From: an uncultured Burkholderiales bacterium | GTDB taxonomy: Bacteria > Pseudomonadota > Gammaproteobacteria > Burkholderiales > Burkholderiaceae_C | Length of the DNA: 35,104 nt | Direction: 5' to 3' | NCBI GenBank assembly: GCA_903896615.1 | Contig: CAITYM010000129.1 | Span: 1 to 35,104, forward strand | Part shown: one piece after another, positions 15,452 to 35,104 of the stretch | How positions within the stretch are numbered: position 1 is the first letter of the stretch | Layout: every line of letters starts with the position of its first letter | The notes under the pieces: generated by a model | Seen by the model: only the letters and a program-made list of their open reading frames with translations | Told to the model about the DNA's origin: nothing | Database searches by the model: none | Program-made: the position numbers and the translations under genes

Positions 15452-15649
15452 ATGAAGCTGAAAGAGGAATATGCGGAAACTCACGTTAACTTTTATAAAA
15501 AAGAATCCTGGTATGAAGGGTTTTTAAAAGGCTGGGACGCGTGCAGGATGGCGTTAGCAGAGAAAACATCACATGGTAGCGAATGGTGTGAAAAAACTAA
15601 AAGCTACAAATTGCTAGATTTTAGAACCTTTGGGGATGAGGAAATATGA
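15452..15649 (+). CDS. Tandem small paralogue 1 (GWDACR family)
   Basis: 65 residues: MKLKEEYAE, then YEGFLKGWDACRMAL, ending in RTFGDEEI. It is the first of three tandem homologues at 15452-16052. The 3' end of each carries the GAGGAA ribosome site of the next, and stop and start overlap as ATGA. The F-x-x-GW-x-ACR core occurs in small phage proteins of unknown function. This copy has the most divergent middle. Confidence 0.65.
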   Translation: MKLKEEYAETHVNFYKKESWYEGFLKGWDACRMALAEKTSHGSEWCEKTKSYKLLDFRTFGDEEI

Positions 15650-15858
15650 AACTGAAAGAGAAAATTGCTTTTGAACACATGTTCCCTCATGTGCAAAACG
15701 ATAACGATATTATCCAAGCATATAGTCACATTCTAGCATTTGTAACTGGCTGGGAGGCTTGCAGAAAAGCACTTTTAGAAACAGTAGATCCCATAAACAA
15801 GGATGTTATTGTTATGCTAATCGACAAGTTGAAAACCTTTGGTGATGAGGAAGTATGA
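15646..15858 (+). CDS. Tandem small paralogue 2
   Basis: 70 residues: MKLKEKIAFEH ... VTGWEACRKALLETVDP ... LKTFGDEEV. It is closest to copy 3 in both protein and DNA: the stretch after each start is almost identical, with AAAATTGCTTTT shared. It starts in an ATGA overlap with copy 1. Confidence 0.65.
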   Translation: MKLKEKIAFEHMFPHVQNDNDIIQAYSHILAFVTGWEACRKALLETVDPINKDVIVMLIDKLKTFGDEEV

Positions 15859-16052
15859 AGCTTAAGGAGAAAATTGCTTTTCGACATGGACCTCCGCCTT
15901 ATGTCAGTAGCGATATTATTCAAGCATTTTTGGATGGCTGGGACGCGTGCAGGAAAACTCTATTAAAAACAGTAGAACCATTGAGCGGCACTGCTATTGT
16001 TATGCCAATAGATCAATTGAAAACTTTTGGCGATGAAGATATTCCGGATTAG
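15855..16052 (+). CDS. Tandem small paralogue 3, stop inside tRNA-Asn
   Basis: 65 residues: MKLKEKIAFRHG ... FLDGWDACRKTLLKTVEP ... LKTFGDEDIPD. It starts in an ATGA overlap with copy 2. Its last three codons and stop (16043-16052) lie within the acceptor arm of tRNA-Asn, so one RNA sequence serves both. The gene may have been extended by, or trimmed to, the tRNA. Confidence 0.65.
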   Translation: MKLKEKIAFRHGPPPYVSSDIIQAFLDGWDACRKTLLKTVEPLSGTAIVMPIDQLKTFGDEDIPD

Positions 16053-16117
16053 ATCAGGGGTAGATCGGCCGGCTGTTAACCGGTAGGTCCTTGGTTCGAA
16101 TCCAAGATCCGGAGCCA
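16043..16117 (+). tRNA. tRNA-Asn (GUU)
   Basis: A complete cloverleaf, with CCA encoded. The acceptor arm is TCCGGAT with ATCCGGA, and the D-stem is GATC/GATC. The anticodon stem GCCGG/CCGGT encloses loop CTGTTAA, giving anticodon GTT. The variable loop is 5 nt, and the T-arm is CTTGG/CCAAG with TTCGAAT. The discriminator is G, as in bacterial tRNA-Asn. It decodes AAC and AAU, and lies ~600 bases upstream of the capsid gene and its AAT-flanked gap. Being complete with CCA and without an integrase nearby, it is more likely a functional tRNA than an attachment-site remnant. Confidence 0.93.
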
Positions 16118-16633: not shown

Positions 16634-18513
16634 ATGCCCGCTCCAATTACCCAGTCCGCAGTGGCTGGTATTCTTAAAGAATTATATGACGATCAGAAAG
16701 TTCAGTGGCTCACTTATAAAGATACGAATAATTAAATGCATTGTCTTTCCCCTAGGTAACTAGGGTGTCTTCCTTTTCAAGCATTTATTGAATGCATTGC
16801 TTGCGATGATCAAAAAGGAAGAGAAGTTCCCTGGTATTTGAAATATTTTCCGGTCTGAGGCCGGTGCTTCTAAGTAATTAGAGGATAATTTGCCAGGGTA
16901 AAATCGGAGAAAATCGGGGAAGGCTGAGATGCTAATCCCGAGGGAAGTTAGGGTTAACAACCGAAACCCCGTAACGCGTAGTGGATGAAACTAACAATAT
17001 GTGTTAGAATATAAGCCGCCAAGAGTCTCCGACTCCTAGTGAATAGGATGAAAAGGTACGCTGAACTTTTACAAAATATGAAAAAGACTTGTTCTAAAGG
17101 AATTCAGAAGTAAAAGAACTAAAGGATAAAAAGCCTTTAGGATAACAAAGAGATCGAAAGGTCTCATGCCCAGTCGTATATGGTTTAACACAAGGCGCGT
17201 CTGCAACATTCAGCAACGCATACAATAACCAATACTCTCCATCCGTGGCAGAGTTTTTGGTTACACGCGTAGCCGATTTCTCGATCGCATCCATCGATGG
17301 ACAGTTGCTTGCAGCTGCTCAGACCGATCCAGGTGCTTTCATCGACGGCGCTGAATTGATGATCGACGCCGCTTTTCAAACAGCGGTGAACAGACTTGCA
17401 TCCGCATTGTTCCGAAACGGTGCTGGTACAATCGGAATGATTAGCTCAGTAGCAAACGTAAGTGGAACCACTTACACTGTTACATTGTCTAATCCTGACG
17501 ATGCTGTTCAATTCGAAATCGGTCAGACACTTGTAGCCGTTCAATTTGTGGATGGTTCAGGTACTGCTCCTTCCGATACAGCAATCGTTAGCGCTGTAAA
17601 TAGAAATACCGGTGTACTTACTGTAACATCGGCAACTAACATTGCGTCTAACTGGCCTGCAACTTATTATCTTGCTGTACAGGGCGATTTGCCAAATTCC
17701 AGCAATAATAACTTTCAGCCTACAGGTTCCAGCGGAACTAACAGCTTGCTCAAGCTTGCTGGTCTAGCTGCTTGGTTACCATTGTCTGGTCCTCCATCTT
17801 CTGATTCATTCTTCGGCGTGAACAGAAACTTGGATGTTCAACGTTTGGCTGGCGTGACCTTCAACGGTTCGTCCCTAACACTTGAGGAAGCACTCCTCCA
17901 AGGAACAGGACGAATTGCATTGAACGGTGGCCGAGTAGATACGGGCGTGTGCTCCTATGCTACTTATACCGCTTTGATCACCTCACTCGGAGCTAAAATC
18001 CAGTACATCGATGAGCGAATTGGTGAGATTGGAGTCCGTGGCGTTCAAGTGAATGGAGCCAACACTGTTATGAGTGTCTTTCCAGACAGAAACTGTCCAG
18101 ACGGATTAATTTACTGTTTGGAAATGGATTCATGGGTACTCCGTTCTCAAAATCCTGCTCCGCACATCCTCAACGTTGCTTAGGGATGTATAAATTCTCT
18201 CTGATTGACTTGGAGGCCCGACAGGGTAACAGGGGGCAAGCGAAAGCAGCCTGAACGACTAAGTGAGAGAACCCGAAAGGGATGCGATAGTCTGAACACT
18301 AGATATAAATAAAACTAGTGAGCCGAAGCCCGAAGAGGTGAGTAGGCCACGGTGAAAACCGGGGTAACAGCAAGTAAGTACATGGATGAAATAGAAATAC
18401 TCCGAGTTCCTGGAGTAGACAGTGCTGAGTTACGTGTTGGAACGTACGGCAATGTTTATTGCACCCATCCAGGTCATAACGGAGTTATTCAGGTTCAGCT
18501 TCAGGAATTTTAA
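16634..18513 (+). CDS. Major capsid protein, split gene (gap plus two group I introns)
   Basis: Coding pieces: 16634-16732, 16794-16835, 17161-18170, 18375-18513, giving about 429 residues. Piece 1 (MPAPITQSAVAGILKELY ... WLTYKDTNN) is the usual N-terminus. Piece 2 encodes ALLAMIKKEEKFPG, matching the N-P-L-x-A-M-x-KK ... FxG segment of this capsid family. Piece 3 starts VSCPVVYGLTQGASATFSNA and holds the conserved FLVTRVADFSIASIDGQ and LASALFRNGAGTIG. Piece 4 ends ILRVPGVDSAELRVGTYGN with a Cys-x-x-x-PGHNG tail typical of the C-terminus. The 61-nt gap after piece 1 is not an obvious intron. The other two junctions follow group I rules. Without splicing, only truncated products could be made. 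Confidence 0.85.
16733..16793 (+). other. 61-nt structured coding gap, possible translational bypass element
   Basis: It starts with stop codon TAA directly after AAT (16730-16732) and ends with AAT (16791-16793), after which the capsid frame resumes at GCA. A perfect 7-bp stem (TAAATGC 16733-16739 with GCATTTA 16781-16787) closes the gap. Inside is a 6-bp hairpin with a GNRA loop (CCCTAG, GTAA, CTAGGG). The frame changes across it (61 nt). T4 gene 60 bypassing uses matched codons, a stop at take-off and a hairpin in a 50-nt gap. Alternatives are an unknown mini-intron or an inactivated gene. Confidence 0.5.
16836..17160 (+). ncRNA. Group I intron 1 in the capsid gene (IA-like)
   Basis: 325 nt. 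P1: exon CCCTGGT (16829-16835) pairs with guide GCCAGGG (16892-16898), with the required U-G at the 5' splice site. P3: TCGGAG (16904-16909) with CTCCGA (17027-17032). J3/4 is AAAA. P4: TCGGG (16914-16918) with CCCGA (16937-16941), resembling the T4 td core. P6: GGGTT/AACCC. P7: GCGTA (16976-16980) with TACGC (17057-17061), keeping the guanosine-site G-C pair. Extra hairpin P7.1-like: CTAACA/TGTTAG. P8: TCCTA/TAGGA. The 3' site after G17160 is the only in-frame G. No P10 is obvious, and no internal ORF is present. Confidence 0.8.
18171..18374 (+). ncRNA. Group I intron 2 in the capsid gene (compact)
   Basis: 204 nt, no ORF. P1: exon ACATCCT (18164-18170) pairs with guide GGGATGT (18183-18189), with U-G at the cut. 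P10: CTTA (18179-18182), directly 5' of the guide, pairs with 3' exon TAAG (18375-18378). P3: TTCTCTC (18195-18201) with GAGAGAA (18265-18271). P4: AGGC with GCCT. P7: GACTA (18257-18261) with TAGTC (18288-18292), the canonical sequence. P8: CCC-GAAA-GGG (18272-18281). P9-like: CACTAG/CTAGTG. The last base is G (18374). The exons join in frame to give ...PHIL-KYMDE. Confidence 0.92.
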
Positions 18514-18565: not shown

Positions 18566-18591
18566 AACATGTTTTAATATATGTGGTGCAT

Positions 18592-19098
18592 ATGAAAATA
18601 TGCCTCCAATGCAAATTAAATCTAGAGGAAAAAGAATTTAGTAAAGCCTCAAGGACTAAGGATGGATTGAGATGGACTTGCAAAAAATGTTGCAAGAACA
18701 AGATGGATCAATACAGATCCAATCCAGATGTTGTTAAGAGAGAACGTGCCAGAAATAACCAATATAATAAGAATAATCCTGACGTTATAAAAAGGGCTAA
18801 AAAAAAGTGGGAAAATAATAATCCCGAAGGATTTAAAAGGTATAATTTATTATGTAAATATGGCCTTACTTTAGAAAAATATAATGAAATATTGGCAAGC
18901 CAAAACGAATGCTGTGCAATTTGTAAAGAACATCAATCGAAACAAAAAAAATCTCTTTATGTAGATCATTGCCATGTAAGTGGAAAGATAAGGGGACTGC
19001 TTTGTTATCAATGTAATATTGTTTTAGGGCACTTTAGAGATTCACCTATAATCTTACAATTCTGTATGGATTATTTAAAACATCATGGCACAAAATAA
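18592..19098 (+). CDS. Endonuclease VII-type HNH nuclease (free-standing, possibly homing)
   Basis: 168 residues from the ATG at 18592; a GTG at 18583 gives three more residues. An N-terminal zinc-binding unit (CLQC ... CKKCC) precedes a Lys/Asn-rich linker. The catalytic endonuclease VII motif follows: CCAICK, then YVDHCHVSGKIRGLLCYQCN, then LGHFRDSP. It is clearly more AT-rich than the surrounding late genes, a sign of separate acquisition. It lies directly after an intron-containing capsid gene. Similar free-standing HNH genes act as homing enzymes for neighbouring introns. T4 endonuclease VII itself resolves branched DNA, so a resolvase role is the alternative. Confidence 0.85.
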   Translation: MKICLQCKLNLEEKEFSKASRTKDGLRWTCKKCCKNKMDQYRSNPDVVKRERARNNQYNKNNPDVIKRAKKKWENNNPEGFKRYNLLCKYGLTLEKYNEILASQNECCAICKEHQSKQKKSLYVDHCHVSGKIRGLLCYQCNIVLGHFRDSPIILQFCMDYLKHHGTK

Positions 19099-32503: not shown

Positions 32504-35104
32504 GTACTTTTGTATGGCCTCCAAGCGGTGGCGGCGGTAGCAGTGGTGTTCCAGGCGGAGCTAATACGGATGTTCAATACAATAACGCGGGCGCTTTTGG
32601 TGGTTCCGCAAACTTTACGTTTGATGGGACAAATGTCACCATAGTCAATGAATTAGCAATTGGGACGACTCCAGGTACCTTTCCTCTCAGCATTGCCGGG
32701 CCTGCCGGTGCAACGGGTACGGTTGGGGATATTTCATTAAAGATTTCTGCAAGTGGGAATGAAACAGGTATTTGGTTAGAGAATACTGGTCCGTCTGGCC
32801 AGGGTTATGTCATCAATACATCGGATTCTAATTCTGCATACGGAACCGGATTTTTTAATATTATTGATTATACTACTCAGATTCCTAGACTTCAAATCTC
32901 CCCTGCTGGTCAAATTCTTGTTAATTATGCTGGTCAGGGTATTAACGCGTTGACTCAAATTTATGGTTCAAATCTTGTTGACCAAACTCAACTTTTACTT
33001 CAAGGCAATACTACCCAAACAACGCCTATTTTTCAAATTAACGATAATGCAAATAATACGCTCCTTACTGTAGATAATTTCGGTAAATTACAGTTAGCTA
33101 ATTTTTCTTCTATTTCTTCTGGAAATATTAATCCTAGTGTAATCGCATTAGCTGGCAATTCCGGAGATGCATTTTTTTCAAACAATACTTTTAATCTGTA
33201 TTTAAAAAAGGATAATGGCACCACCACAAATTGGGTACCTCTTAACGTAGGTAATACGATAACTTGGCAGGTAGGGGGCTCTGGAGGTCAGAACGTTTAC
33301 AGTAATTGGTCCGATGTTTATGCAATTATTTCTGCTGTATCGGGTCCTATAGTCGTTACGGTAGATAATACGTTTTCGGGAGGGACCTCAACCATCCCGG
33401 CTGGGACTTATAATCTTCAAAATGTATCCTTTACTTCTTTACCTTCTTTGGGATCATCGAATTTTTCAAATATTAATTTAGCCGATGGTTGTACTTTTAC
33501 TGGATTCCCTACGCTTGAATACAACATAGCCATGACGTCATCAAGTGCTTCGGTAGTCTATACCAGCAGCTTGAATGATGTTTTTAGTATCCTAGGTGGT
33601 AGCGCTTTACTTATGAACGGTTCAGGGGCTCCAATGATTAATTGCCTGACCGGATCAAATCCTACCTTAGTATTAGGAGAAAACTCTGAATGTTTTGGAT
33701 CTGCCCCTTCCTCTCCGGTGATTCAATTACAGCCTTCAGTTGGTTTGTTTGTGGATTTAGATGTAAATGTAGTTGTACATCAAAACGTAATTGCATCGGT
33801 GGATAGTACTGCTAATGCCTATGTGTTTTACAATAATAATAATGCTATTTATTTCCCACAGGCGTTATTTTCAGGGACAACTTCTTATAGTCAAAGTAAC
33901 ATTTTTTATGGAATAAATAACAACGGTGCTTTGCAGGTTCATGCAGATCCTAATACTTCTAATTACAATCTTTTCTTTCCACAAAATCAATCAGTAGCCG
34001 GACAAACATTTGTAAATGATGGAGCCGGTAACTTAAGTTGGCAGACGGCGGCTTTAAATTCGTCTGTTGTGTTTCAGCCGGGCGGAACCAGTAGTGGAAG
34101 CACTTATACTTCATGGGCTAGTTTAATCACAGCAATTACAACTGATCAAAATGCCTACGTCACAGTGGTGATGGATCCTACTTTTAGCGCGATTACAATT
34201 CCATCCGGGACCTATTTTTTAGGCAATGTGGAATTCATAGCGTTAAATGGAACTCCTACGACCGTCACCATGGCAGACGGTGCGGTCTTCGGAGAGTTTC
34301 CAATTCTTGGTAGGGGAATAACACTCACTTCCGTATCCACGGGTTCTATCTATACTCTTTCAGGAGGAGCCCCAAATCCTACTCTTACTTTTAAAGACGG
34401 CGGATCTCTTTTAAATGTAACCGGGTTTGGTCCGATGATTCAGTTTTCAAACAATAATCAAATGATTATTAATATGTCGGGAGGGGGTAGCATTACAGGT
34501 GCTGTTTCTCATGCCATTTTTGATTTATCAATAAGTTGCGGTTTGACCATCAACCTATTTGATAACTCAATTATCAATCAAAATTCAGTGACTACTTCCG
34601 ATGGTTCAGCGTTTTTAGTAGTAAACACAATAGGCAACGGTAGCACGATTTTAGGCCCTCAAACAGGGTTTGCAGCCGGTTTGACAGTAAATAGTTCACT
34701 CCTATTGTCTCAAGTCAATTTGAATCAAGTTACTATTTCACCTAATGCATCCACTGCTACCTTTCAATTAGTACTACCAGCTGCACAGGGCGGAGCGAAT
34801 CAAACGGTCATTAATGACGGCACGGGAGCTTTGAGTTGGGCCGATTCTATCAGCTCCGTTTCCGTCACTTCTGCCAATGGATTTGCAGGAACGGTTGATA
34901 CAATTACCACACCTGGTATTCCGGCGATTACTCTTCAAACGACCGTAACGTCACCAGTTTTATCTGGAAATGGGACTGCAATTTCTGCGGCAACCACCAC
35001 AGGCAGTGGATCCACGGTTGTGCTTGCAACGAGTCCGACACTTGTAACTCCAGTGCTGGGAACTCCTACGTCTGGTACTTTGACTAACTGTACAGGGTTA
35101 CCAC
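32500..35104 (+). CDS. Tail fibre/adhesin, N-terminal part (continues at 1)
   Basis: Open from the ATG at 32500 (ATGA overlap) to the window end. It is continuous in phase with 2-1360 through the 44-base overlap; total 1306 residues. The N-terminus MSTFVWPPSGGGGSSGVPG, then ANTDVQYNNAGAFGGSANF, is a widespread fibre start. Two homologous beta-rich modules follow, from ~33262 (GGSGGQNVYSNWSDVYAII ... TIPAGTYNLQNVSF) and ~34072 (GGTSSGSTYTSWASLITAI ... TIPSGTYFLGNVEF), consistent with beta-helix domains. Each is bracketed by the FVNDGAGNLSW / VINDGTGALSW trimerisation-type motif. SVTSANGFAG marks a module repeated after the junction. Confidence 0.85.
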   Translation, partial: MSTFVWPPSGGGGSSGVPGGANTDVQYNNAGAFGGSANFTFDGTNVTIVNELAIGTTPGTFPLSIAGPAGATGTVGDISLKISASGNETGIWLENTGPSGQGYVINTSDSNSAYGTGFFNIIDYTTQIPRLQISPAGQILVNYAGQGINALTQIYGSNLVDQTQLLLQGNTTQTTPIFQINDNANNTLLTVDNFGKLQLANFSSISSGNINPSVIALAGNSGDAFFSNNTFNLYLKKDNGTTTNWVPLNVGNTITWQVGGSGGQNVYSNWSDVYAIISAVSGPIVVTVDNTFSGGTSTIPAGTYNLQNVSFTSLPSLGSSNFSNINLADGCTFTGFPTLEYNIAMTSSSASVVYTSSLNDVFSILGGSALLMNGSGAPMINCLTGSNPTLVLGENSECFGSAPSSPVIQLQPSVGLFVDLDVNVVVHQNVIASVDSTANAYVFYNNNNAIYFPQALFSGTTSYSQSNIFYGINNNGALQVHADPNTSNYNLFFPQNQSVAGQTFVNDGAGNLSWQTAALNSSVVFQPGGTSSGSTYTSWASLITAITTDQNAYVTVVMDPTFSAITIPSGTYFLGNVEFIALNGTPTTVTMADGAVFGEFPILGRGITLTSVSTGSIYTLSGGAPNPTLTFKDGGSLLNVTGFGPMIQFSNNNQMIINMSGGGSITGAVSHAIFDLSISCGLTINLFDNSIINQNSVTTSDGSAFLVVNTIGNGSTILGPQTGFAAGLTVNSSLLLSQVNLNQVTISPNASTATFQLVLPAAQGGANQTVINDGTGALSWADSISSVSVTSANGFAGTVDTITTPGIPAITLQTTVTSPVLSGNGTAISAATTTGSGSTVVLATSPTLVTPVLGTPTSGTLTNCTGLP
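35061..35104. repeat. Terminal direct repeat, right copy (circular overlap)
   Basis: Identical to bases 1-44; see the left copy. Removing it gives a 35,060-bp circle in which the fibre gene is intact. Confidence 0.93.

Follow-up and report, generated by a model that had tools for sequence, protein, structure and literature searches.

The stretch analysed here, 35,104 nucleotides (nt) of contig CAITYM010000129.1 (assembly GCA_903896615.1, an uncultured Burkholderiales bacterium) and hereafter the window, carries a phage capsid gene that is interrupted by four pieces of DNA: an insert of 67 nt, an insert of 5 nt, a full group I intron of 314 nt and a further group I intron that belongs to another type (Table 1). 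Once the four pieces are removed, the gene reads through 429 codons with no stop and is colinear with the capsid genes of relatives. Uninterrupted relatives were found on viral contigs (42 loci), and the close ones read QWLTYKDNPxLAMxKKEEKFPGKYFPVPVVYG without a break, with ...TYKD-NPxLAM... at the site of the 67-nt insert. Compared with these relatives the window is longer by 67 nt between 16723 and 16791 and by 319 nt (5 + 314) between 16835 and 17170, and in the DNA alignment a 5-nt gap in capsid loci L012 and L019 stands opposite ATTTG at 16836-16840.

The original prediction for this locus, made from the sequence alone, had described a 61-nt gap in the capsid gene and had offered either ribosomal bypass or an unknown mini-intron to account for it. 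The gap is real, and the gap-free homologues that were named there as a check run through the site unbroken. Its length is 67 nt (16724-16790) and not 61, because ACGAATAAT has no counterpart in the relatives. The elements described within it were recovered as well: ACG AAT AAT TAA at 16724-16735 was read directly, a capsid-like segment resumes in another frame from AAT 16791, TAAATGC (16733-16739) is complementary to GCATTTA (16781-16787), and CCCTAG-GTAA-CTAGGG is present at 16750-16765. The hairpin that closes the gap is the minimum-energy fold (-15.1 kcal/mol, z -1.99), only modestly above chance given that 7 of 200 shuffles were equally good. The 5-nt insert, the 314-nt intron and the second group I intron had not been mentioned.

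Both ends of the 67-nt insert have the features expected of group I splice sites. A guide sequence within the insert, guide C, pairs with the end of exon 1 in a P1 helix (AAAGAU with GUCUUU) whose U.G pair, formed by G16743, falls exactly at the 5' splice site. At the other end the last base of the insert is G16790, and the same guide forms an 8-bp P10 helix with the 3' exon. The combined score of 6 + 8 = 14 pairs was the highest among all positions from 16634 to 18400 (runner-up, 9), and pairing as good was found at 0 of 720 decoy junctions, which combined other upstream U positions with starts 3-42 nt downstream in the same gene. By its size and by reading, the insert has no room for the catalytic core P3-P8. 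An Rfam search of the window matched only a tRNA, with no intron match for the 67-nt insert or for either full intron. The original prediction held that a group I intron cannot be so small; this is correct for a self-sufficient intron but not if a neighbour supplies the core. We know of no group I intron as small as 30 nt, let alone 5 nt.

Since Rfam misses both full introns, the fold was examined by covariation. The 314-nt intron is presumably of subgroup IA or similar to it. In 14 introns from the window and its relatives, the helices that we take to be P3, P4/P5, P7 and P7.1 were paired in 96.4% of 336 cells, 48 cells had changed on both sides (12.6 expected on shuffling), and sliding the helix partner by 1-3 columns lowered pairing to 26-50%. 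Parts of this intron match Clostridioides, Staphylococcus, Yersinia and gut phages (49 records at E up to 1, 20 of them listed). Among the records inspected the match fell in non-coding DNA or separated the pieces of a split gene, with one case inside an annotated gyrA frame; none of these labels the matching stretch an intron. With P10 mismatches allowed, the intron's own guide, guide B, scores higher than any other place in the intron (9 versus 7) and is not outstanding in the gene; by unbroken pairs it scores 6, tied with two other positions. For the second intron, a guide near G18183 pairs with both exon ends (7 + 6; next best 7), and the intron resembles the stretch between two P22-coat-like frames of MW202674. 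This second type (around AACGACTAA.TGAGA) recurs in the capsid family, with three copies in the one gene of L213 and one copy in L012.

The guide for the 5-nt insert is located inside the full intron. Guide A pairs with CCCUGGU (16829-16835) and AAAU (16841-16844), thus spanning the junction of the 5-nt insert with 7 + 4 pairs and a U.G pair at the splice site. Its score of 11 compares with 8 for the runner-up position. Since by reading the relatives L181, L252 and L272 have a full intron at the G^KY site (carets mark junctions) with a similar guide next to the core, guide A is probably the former guide of the window's full intron, and exon 2b would now sit in that intron's P1 loop.

Core-less inserts of 30-59 nt recur at several sites in the capsid genes of related phages (Table 1). 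Scanning for the 3' terminus of introns of this kind returned at least 120 stretches, of which 80 were listed, and a gap screen aimed at mini introns in any gene (plus-strand frames split by gaps, 132 sequences) exposed the capsid relatives L086 and L103, each with its own small insert. A small excess in L060, the sole non-capsid case inspected from that screen, turned out to be two adjacent genes and was rejected. Later capsid scans yielded 38 loci, 31 loci (partly the same) and the best 80 of 155, and exon chains were built over 186 capsid loci and supplemented by inspection. When boundaries were set by protein fit alone, the register that begins after U and ends with G (U^...G^) was among the one to three tied best registers in 19 of 20 loci, which exclude the window and include near-identical groups of 5 and of 2; the exception was L261, for which the fit gave 37 nt instead of 36. 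The window itself was mis-parsed by protein fit owing to a one-residue difference near its N-terminus. A guide-pattern search at the ESP^DGFAG site returned 9 loci, all on contigs already found and all with a full intron, and is not an independent test. At L240 5370-5386, where no intron was found, the capsid gene has a 1-nt frame change, either a sequencing error or an element below mini-intron size; this locus was counted as lacking a mini intron.

Copies of the 67-nt element were also sought elsewhere. The exact 17-mer CCCCTAGGTAACTAGGG occurred at 5 loci in viral contigs, in contexts that look unrelated, and blastn of an 81-nt query against phages returned 7 records with only short matches (21-23 nt, E 2-8). 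Eight plasmid records match the full intron and none the insert. Pattern scans of genome contigs gave 82 and 50 stretches, none of them a relative, and the capsid was found in none of 60 related genomes besides the window's own.

The guides of the family are specific to their junctions. Over 18 inserts, with one P1 bulge and one spacer base allowed at real and decoy junctions alike, 18 of 10200 decoys paired as well as the true junction, and none did so for 16 of the 18 inserts. In a stricter test beforehand, which permitted neither bulge nor spacer, the four bulged V^YK inserts scored poorly, as did L243/L244 (128/599 decoys as good). L273/L274, scored by unbroken pairs only, reached 13 pairs (0/560 decoys). 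In a cross test of 14 inserts, which left out the bulged inserts, L243/L244 and L257 and included L273 and the 5-nt insert of the window, guides formed 166 of 168 pairs at their own junctions; a guide from another site formed a mean of 5.6 of 12 pairs, with a maximum of 8 (148 comparisons). Furthermore, exon and guide have changed together. The 3' exon/guide combinations are AUAAGG/CCUUAU, AUAAAG/CUUUAU and ACAAA/UUUGU at the V^YK site, and AAAGAA/UUCUUU, AAAGAG/CUCUUU and AAGGA/UCCUU at the TDD^KEYMK site.

These results bear on whether ribosomes might instead bypass the gap, as in T4 gene 60. In the window a stop follows soon after exon 1 (TAA 16733), a hairpin is present and AAT stands at both ends, and in the family an in-frame stop is reached inside 17 of 18 inserts. 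However, the sense codon just ahead of the first in-frame stop is identical to the triplet preceding resumption in 0 of the 18 inserts, window included, and to the codon that opens the second piece in only 2 (the window and L242). Identical take-off and landing codons, although found in the window itself, are thus not a property of the family, and bypass was rejected on these 18 inserts. A hop from AAT to AAT would also leave two extra residues (TN) that are missing in the close relatives, several inserts are multiples of 3 (for example L181, L252, L267, L254 and L276), and the 5-nt insert would be unexplained, with by eye no matching landing codon in the right frame. Neither guide pairing nor the U^...G^ rule plays a part in bypass, which we consider extremely unlikely. 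Of the two explanations first put forward it is the mini-intron that is strongly supported, by the group I splice-site rules and by guide pairing across the family; the feature is real and recurrent, and was misread as bypass.

The core-less inserts are linked to full introns. The 186 capsid loci formed 143 clusters at 95% identity, and inserts were present in 19 of 26 clusters with a full group I intron and in 0 of 117 without one (Fisher P 3e-18, a value that is too small because the clusters are related to each other). By subfamily the proportions, with versus without a full intron, were 16/20 vs 0/52, 2/4 vs 0/39 and 1/2 vs 0/26. In this count L257 and L273/L274 were classed as having both kinds by reading, L181, L243/L244 and others were classed as mini-bearing by reading, and an open mini intron with a length that is a multiple of 3 could escape detection in an intron-free gene. 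Capsid genes of L103 (L242) and of the L297 group have, in some cases, two full IA-like introns and one mini intron each.

The distribution is informative for two further explanations. The inserts might be scars in dead or misassembled genes, and the window's contig does come from a bin of 173 contigs. Against this, inserts recur in 19 clusters, in different metagenome samples as judged by contig name and at several positions, their downstream frames are open and their guides match. The window also has an exact 44-nt terminal repeat (1-44 and 35061-35104), as expected for a complete genome, and for this reason the contig probably represents a whole phage genome, either circular or terminally redundant. 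We regard scars as very unlikely. Alternatively, the inserts could be degenerate group I introns that splice alone or with help from exons or host, independently of a neighbouring core, in the manner of PaSSU. That 67-nt intron was reported to splice in vitro and in vivo with only P1, P7, P10 and exon pairing, failing or working inefficiently with short exons and succeeding with about 300 nt of context, according to the available part of the report (PMC3160393). PaSSU ends in U, whereas the phage inserts end in G, and the absence of inserts from all intron-free clusters is not what such independence would give. Inserts down to 30 nt leave little space for P7, and the 5-nt insert cannot be autonomous, its guide lying in the full intron. 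This explanation therefore appears unlikely. For the longer inserts self-sufficiency of the PaSSU type is conceivable, if improbable, and it would leave the association and the 5-nt insert unexplained.

We consider it probable that the 67-nt insert is a mini group I intron that has kept the substrate parts, lacks the core and is removed by a core that the full intron of its transcript provides. It retains the P1/P10 guide, a P2-like hairpin and the terminal G, and would have lost P3-P8. The downstream full intron would provide this core, either from within the same pre-mRNA or in trans once it has been excised. The core would dock the P1/P10 helix of the mini intron, cleave after U and then, past the terminal G, ligate exon 1 with exon 2a. 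P1 is recognised by group I cores through its shape and its U.G pair, which is why designed ribozymes can excise foreign segments. In the window one core would act three times, on the 67-nt insert with guide C, on the 5-nt insert with guide A and on itself with guide B, handling the two inserts before its self-removal or afterwards in trans. If all steps occur in cis, the guide B step would come last, because self-removal takes away guide A and the core. More generally, on balance we favour a natural system of one core and many introns, in which a single ribozyme core removes its own intron together with mini introns of 30-67 nt and the 5-nt intron, each through its own guide.

Several observations weigh against this interpretation. 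The P10 strand AATGCATT reads as a palindrome and occurs as a direct repeat, and it could therefore be an insertion footprint. Guide B has one mismatch in P10. The 18 decoys that reached the true pairing all belong to L242 (15/520) and L244 (3/560), and guide exchange within the TDD^KEYMK site barely alters pairing. L272, L252, L267 and L261, all at one site, need a P1 bulge, and L244 needs a one-base spacer. In L257 P1 is broken and the 8 unbroken pairs were reached by 23 of 560 decoys, so this insert is not supported on its own. Seven of the 26 full-intron clusters lack a mini intron (L012/L237, L186, L202/L213, L246, L282, L289 and L295). L273/L274 is the sole mini-bearing cluster with only the other intron type, and thus no single core family serves all mini introns. 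Finally, for designed ribozymes longer excisions are inefficient in cells, and the 100-nt spliceozyme needs an extra P9.2 contact, as given in the accessible text of PMC6155759.

The V^YK site, which has a mini intron in L179 and L181, carries by reading a full intron with a similar guide in L245. For this reason the mini introns likely arose from full introns by deletion of the core. A possible benefit is protection from homing endonucleases, by analogy with the T4 gene 60 insert, which is thought to protect from a homing nuclease (PMC5009743, in the portion available).

The proposed system would have consequences beyond this gene. Group I introns are taught as self-sufficient. If the interpretation is true, these phages do naturally what trans-excision splicing achieves by design. 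They would also represent an intermediate stage, made of RNA alone, between self-splicing and shared splicing machinery, and how such machinery can evolve from self-splicing introns would become directly testable. Introns that keep only an address and their ends would be the intron counterpart of non-autonomous transposons, and phage genes with small out-of-frame gaps may be intact. Among the top-ranked results in the open-licence part of PubMed Central (PMC) there was no description of core-less introns served by a neighbour's core, and this is possibly the first natural case of group I core sharing.

Other features lie near the interrupted genes. In the window a tRNA-Asn (GTT) gene at 16043-16117 is upstream of the capsid gene, three tandem small frames at 15452-16052 are alike at their starts (MKLKE...) and apparently paralogous, and a recombination-endonuclease-VII-like gene (PF02945, E 7.6e-23) follows the capsid gene at 18583-19098. 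The full introns of L086 and L103 hold frames similar to that gene. In the reverse complement of L103, at 39-245, the L103 capsid gene is preceded by another fragment that resembles a capsid C-terminus.

Table 1. Features of the interrupted capsid gene in the window and core-less inserts in related capsid genes (carets mark junctions).
Feature	Position	Strand	Details
Capsid gene start	16634	+	
Capsid exon 1	16634-16723	+	MPAPITQSAVAGILKELYDDQKVQWLTYKD; final base U16723; from comparison with relatives
Proposed core-less mini group I intron, 67 nt	16724-16790	+	final base G16790; 67-nt excess over uninterrupted relatives
Guide C	16735-16748	+	AATGCATT^GTCTTT (= AATGCATTGTCTTT); complementary to joined exons AAAGAU^AAUGCAUU
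Guide C, P10 half	16735-16742	+	8 bp with 3' exon AATGCATT, 16791-16798
Guide C, P1 half	16743-16748	+	6 bp with 5' exon AAAGAT, 16718-16723
GUAA-capped hairpin	16750-16765	+	CCCUAG-GUAA-CUAGGG; resembles P2 of the full intron by eye
Capsid exon 2a	16791-16835	+	NALLAMIKKEEKFPG; from relatives
5-nt insert	16836-16840	+	AUUUG (DNA ATTTG); after U16835, final base G16840
Capsid exon 2b	16841-16854	+	AAATATTTTCCGGT (KYFP and first two bases of V); final base U16854
Full group I intron, 314 nt	16855-17168	+	final base G17168
Guide B	16855-16864	+	CUGAG^GCCGG; 5' exon CCGGU 16850-16854 (5 bp), 3' exon CCCAG 17169-17173 (4/5)
P2 hairpin	16867-16884	+	GUAA loop
Guide A	16888-16898	+	AUUU^GCCAGGG (= AUUUGCCAGGG); inside full intron; complementary to CCCUGGU^AAAU
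P3, 5' strand	16904-16910	+	UCGGAGA; partner 17026-17032
P7, 5' strand	16976-16980	+	GCGUA; partner 17057-17061
Capsid exon 3	17169-18170	+	
Second group I intron, other type	18171-18374	+	
Capsid exon 4	18375-18513	+	
Predicted capsid peptide			WLTYKDNALLAMIK
Core-less inserts, TDD^KEYMK			L242 (= L103), L245, L278, L254, L316
Core-less inserts, V^YK, two registers			L272, L252, L267, L261; L179 (= L086), L181
Core-less insert, EN^PF			L273/L274
Core-less inserts, ESP^DGFAG			L277, L276, L297 group, L306/L307, L243/L244, L257

Known systems resemble the phage case in part. One such system is the full-length phage introns of what we take to be subgroup IA: the window's full intron resembles non-coding DNA of C. 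difficile phages and the DNA that separates split gyrase-A or capsid frames in phiR1-37 and bajarodcaudo virus 1, none of it labelled an intron among the records inspected. The mini introns differ from these in having no core, and the window's full intron in having two guides. In Twort orf142 and SIOphi exon skipping, group I introns of one transcript also act across intron borders, although the available part of that report describes no core-less intron (PMC11878797). The Phialophora mini introns of the PaSSU type are similar in size (63-75 nt), in a P1 with G.U, in P10 and in the lack of a standard core. They lie in ribosomal DNA, end in U and are said in the available text to use a P7 of their own (PMC3160393), whereas the phage inserts are spread over several positions of a protein-coding gene, have G as their last base and accompany full introns. 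The 50-nt gap of T4 gene 60 is likewise a short non-coding insert in a phage gene with a stop nearby; as described in the accessible part of PMC5009743, it is skipped at translation via matched GGA codons, whereas the guide pairing in the phage capsid genes points to RNA splicing. The mechanism proposed here is paralleled by trans-excision-splicing ribozymes and spliceozymes, in which a group I core removes a foreign internal segment of 1 to about 100 nt; the accessible text reports excision of single nucleotides and of 100-nt introns, in vitro and in E. coli (PMC6155759). Those ribozymes are designed and act in trans, with P9.2 added in the spliceozymes, whereas the phage system would be natural and would probably act in cis.
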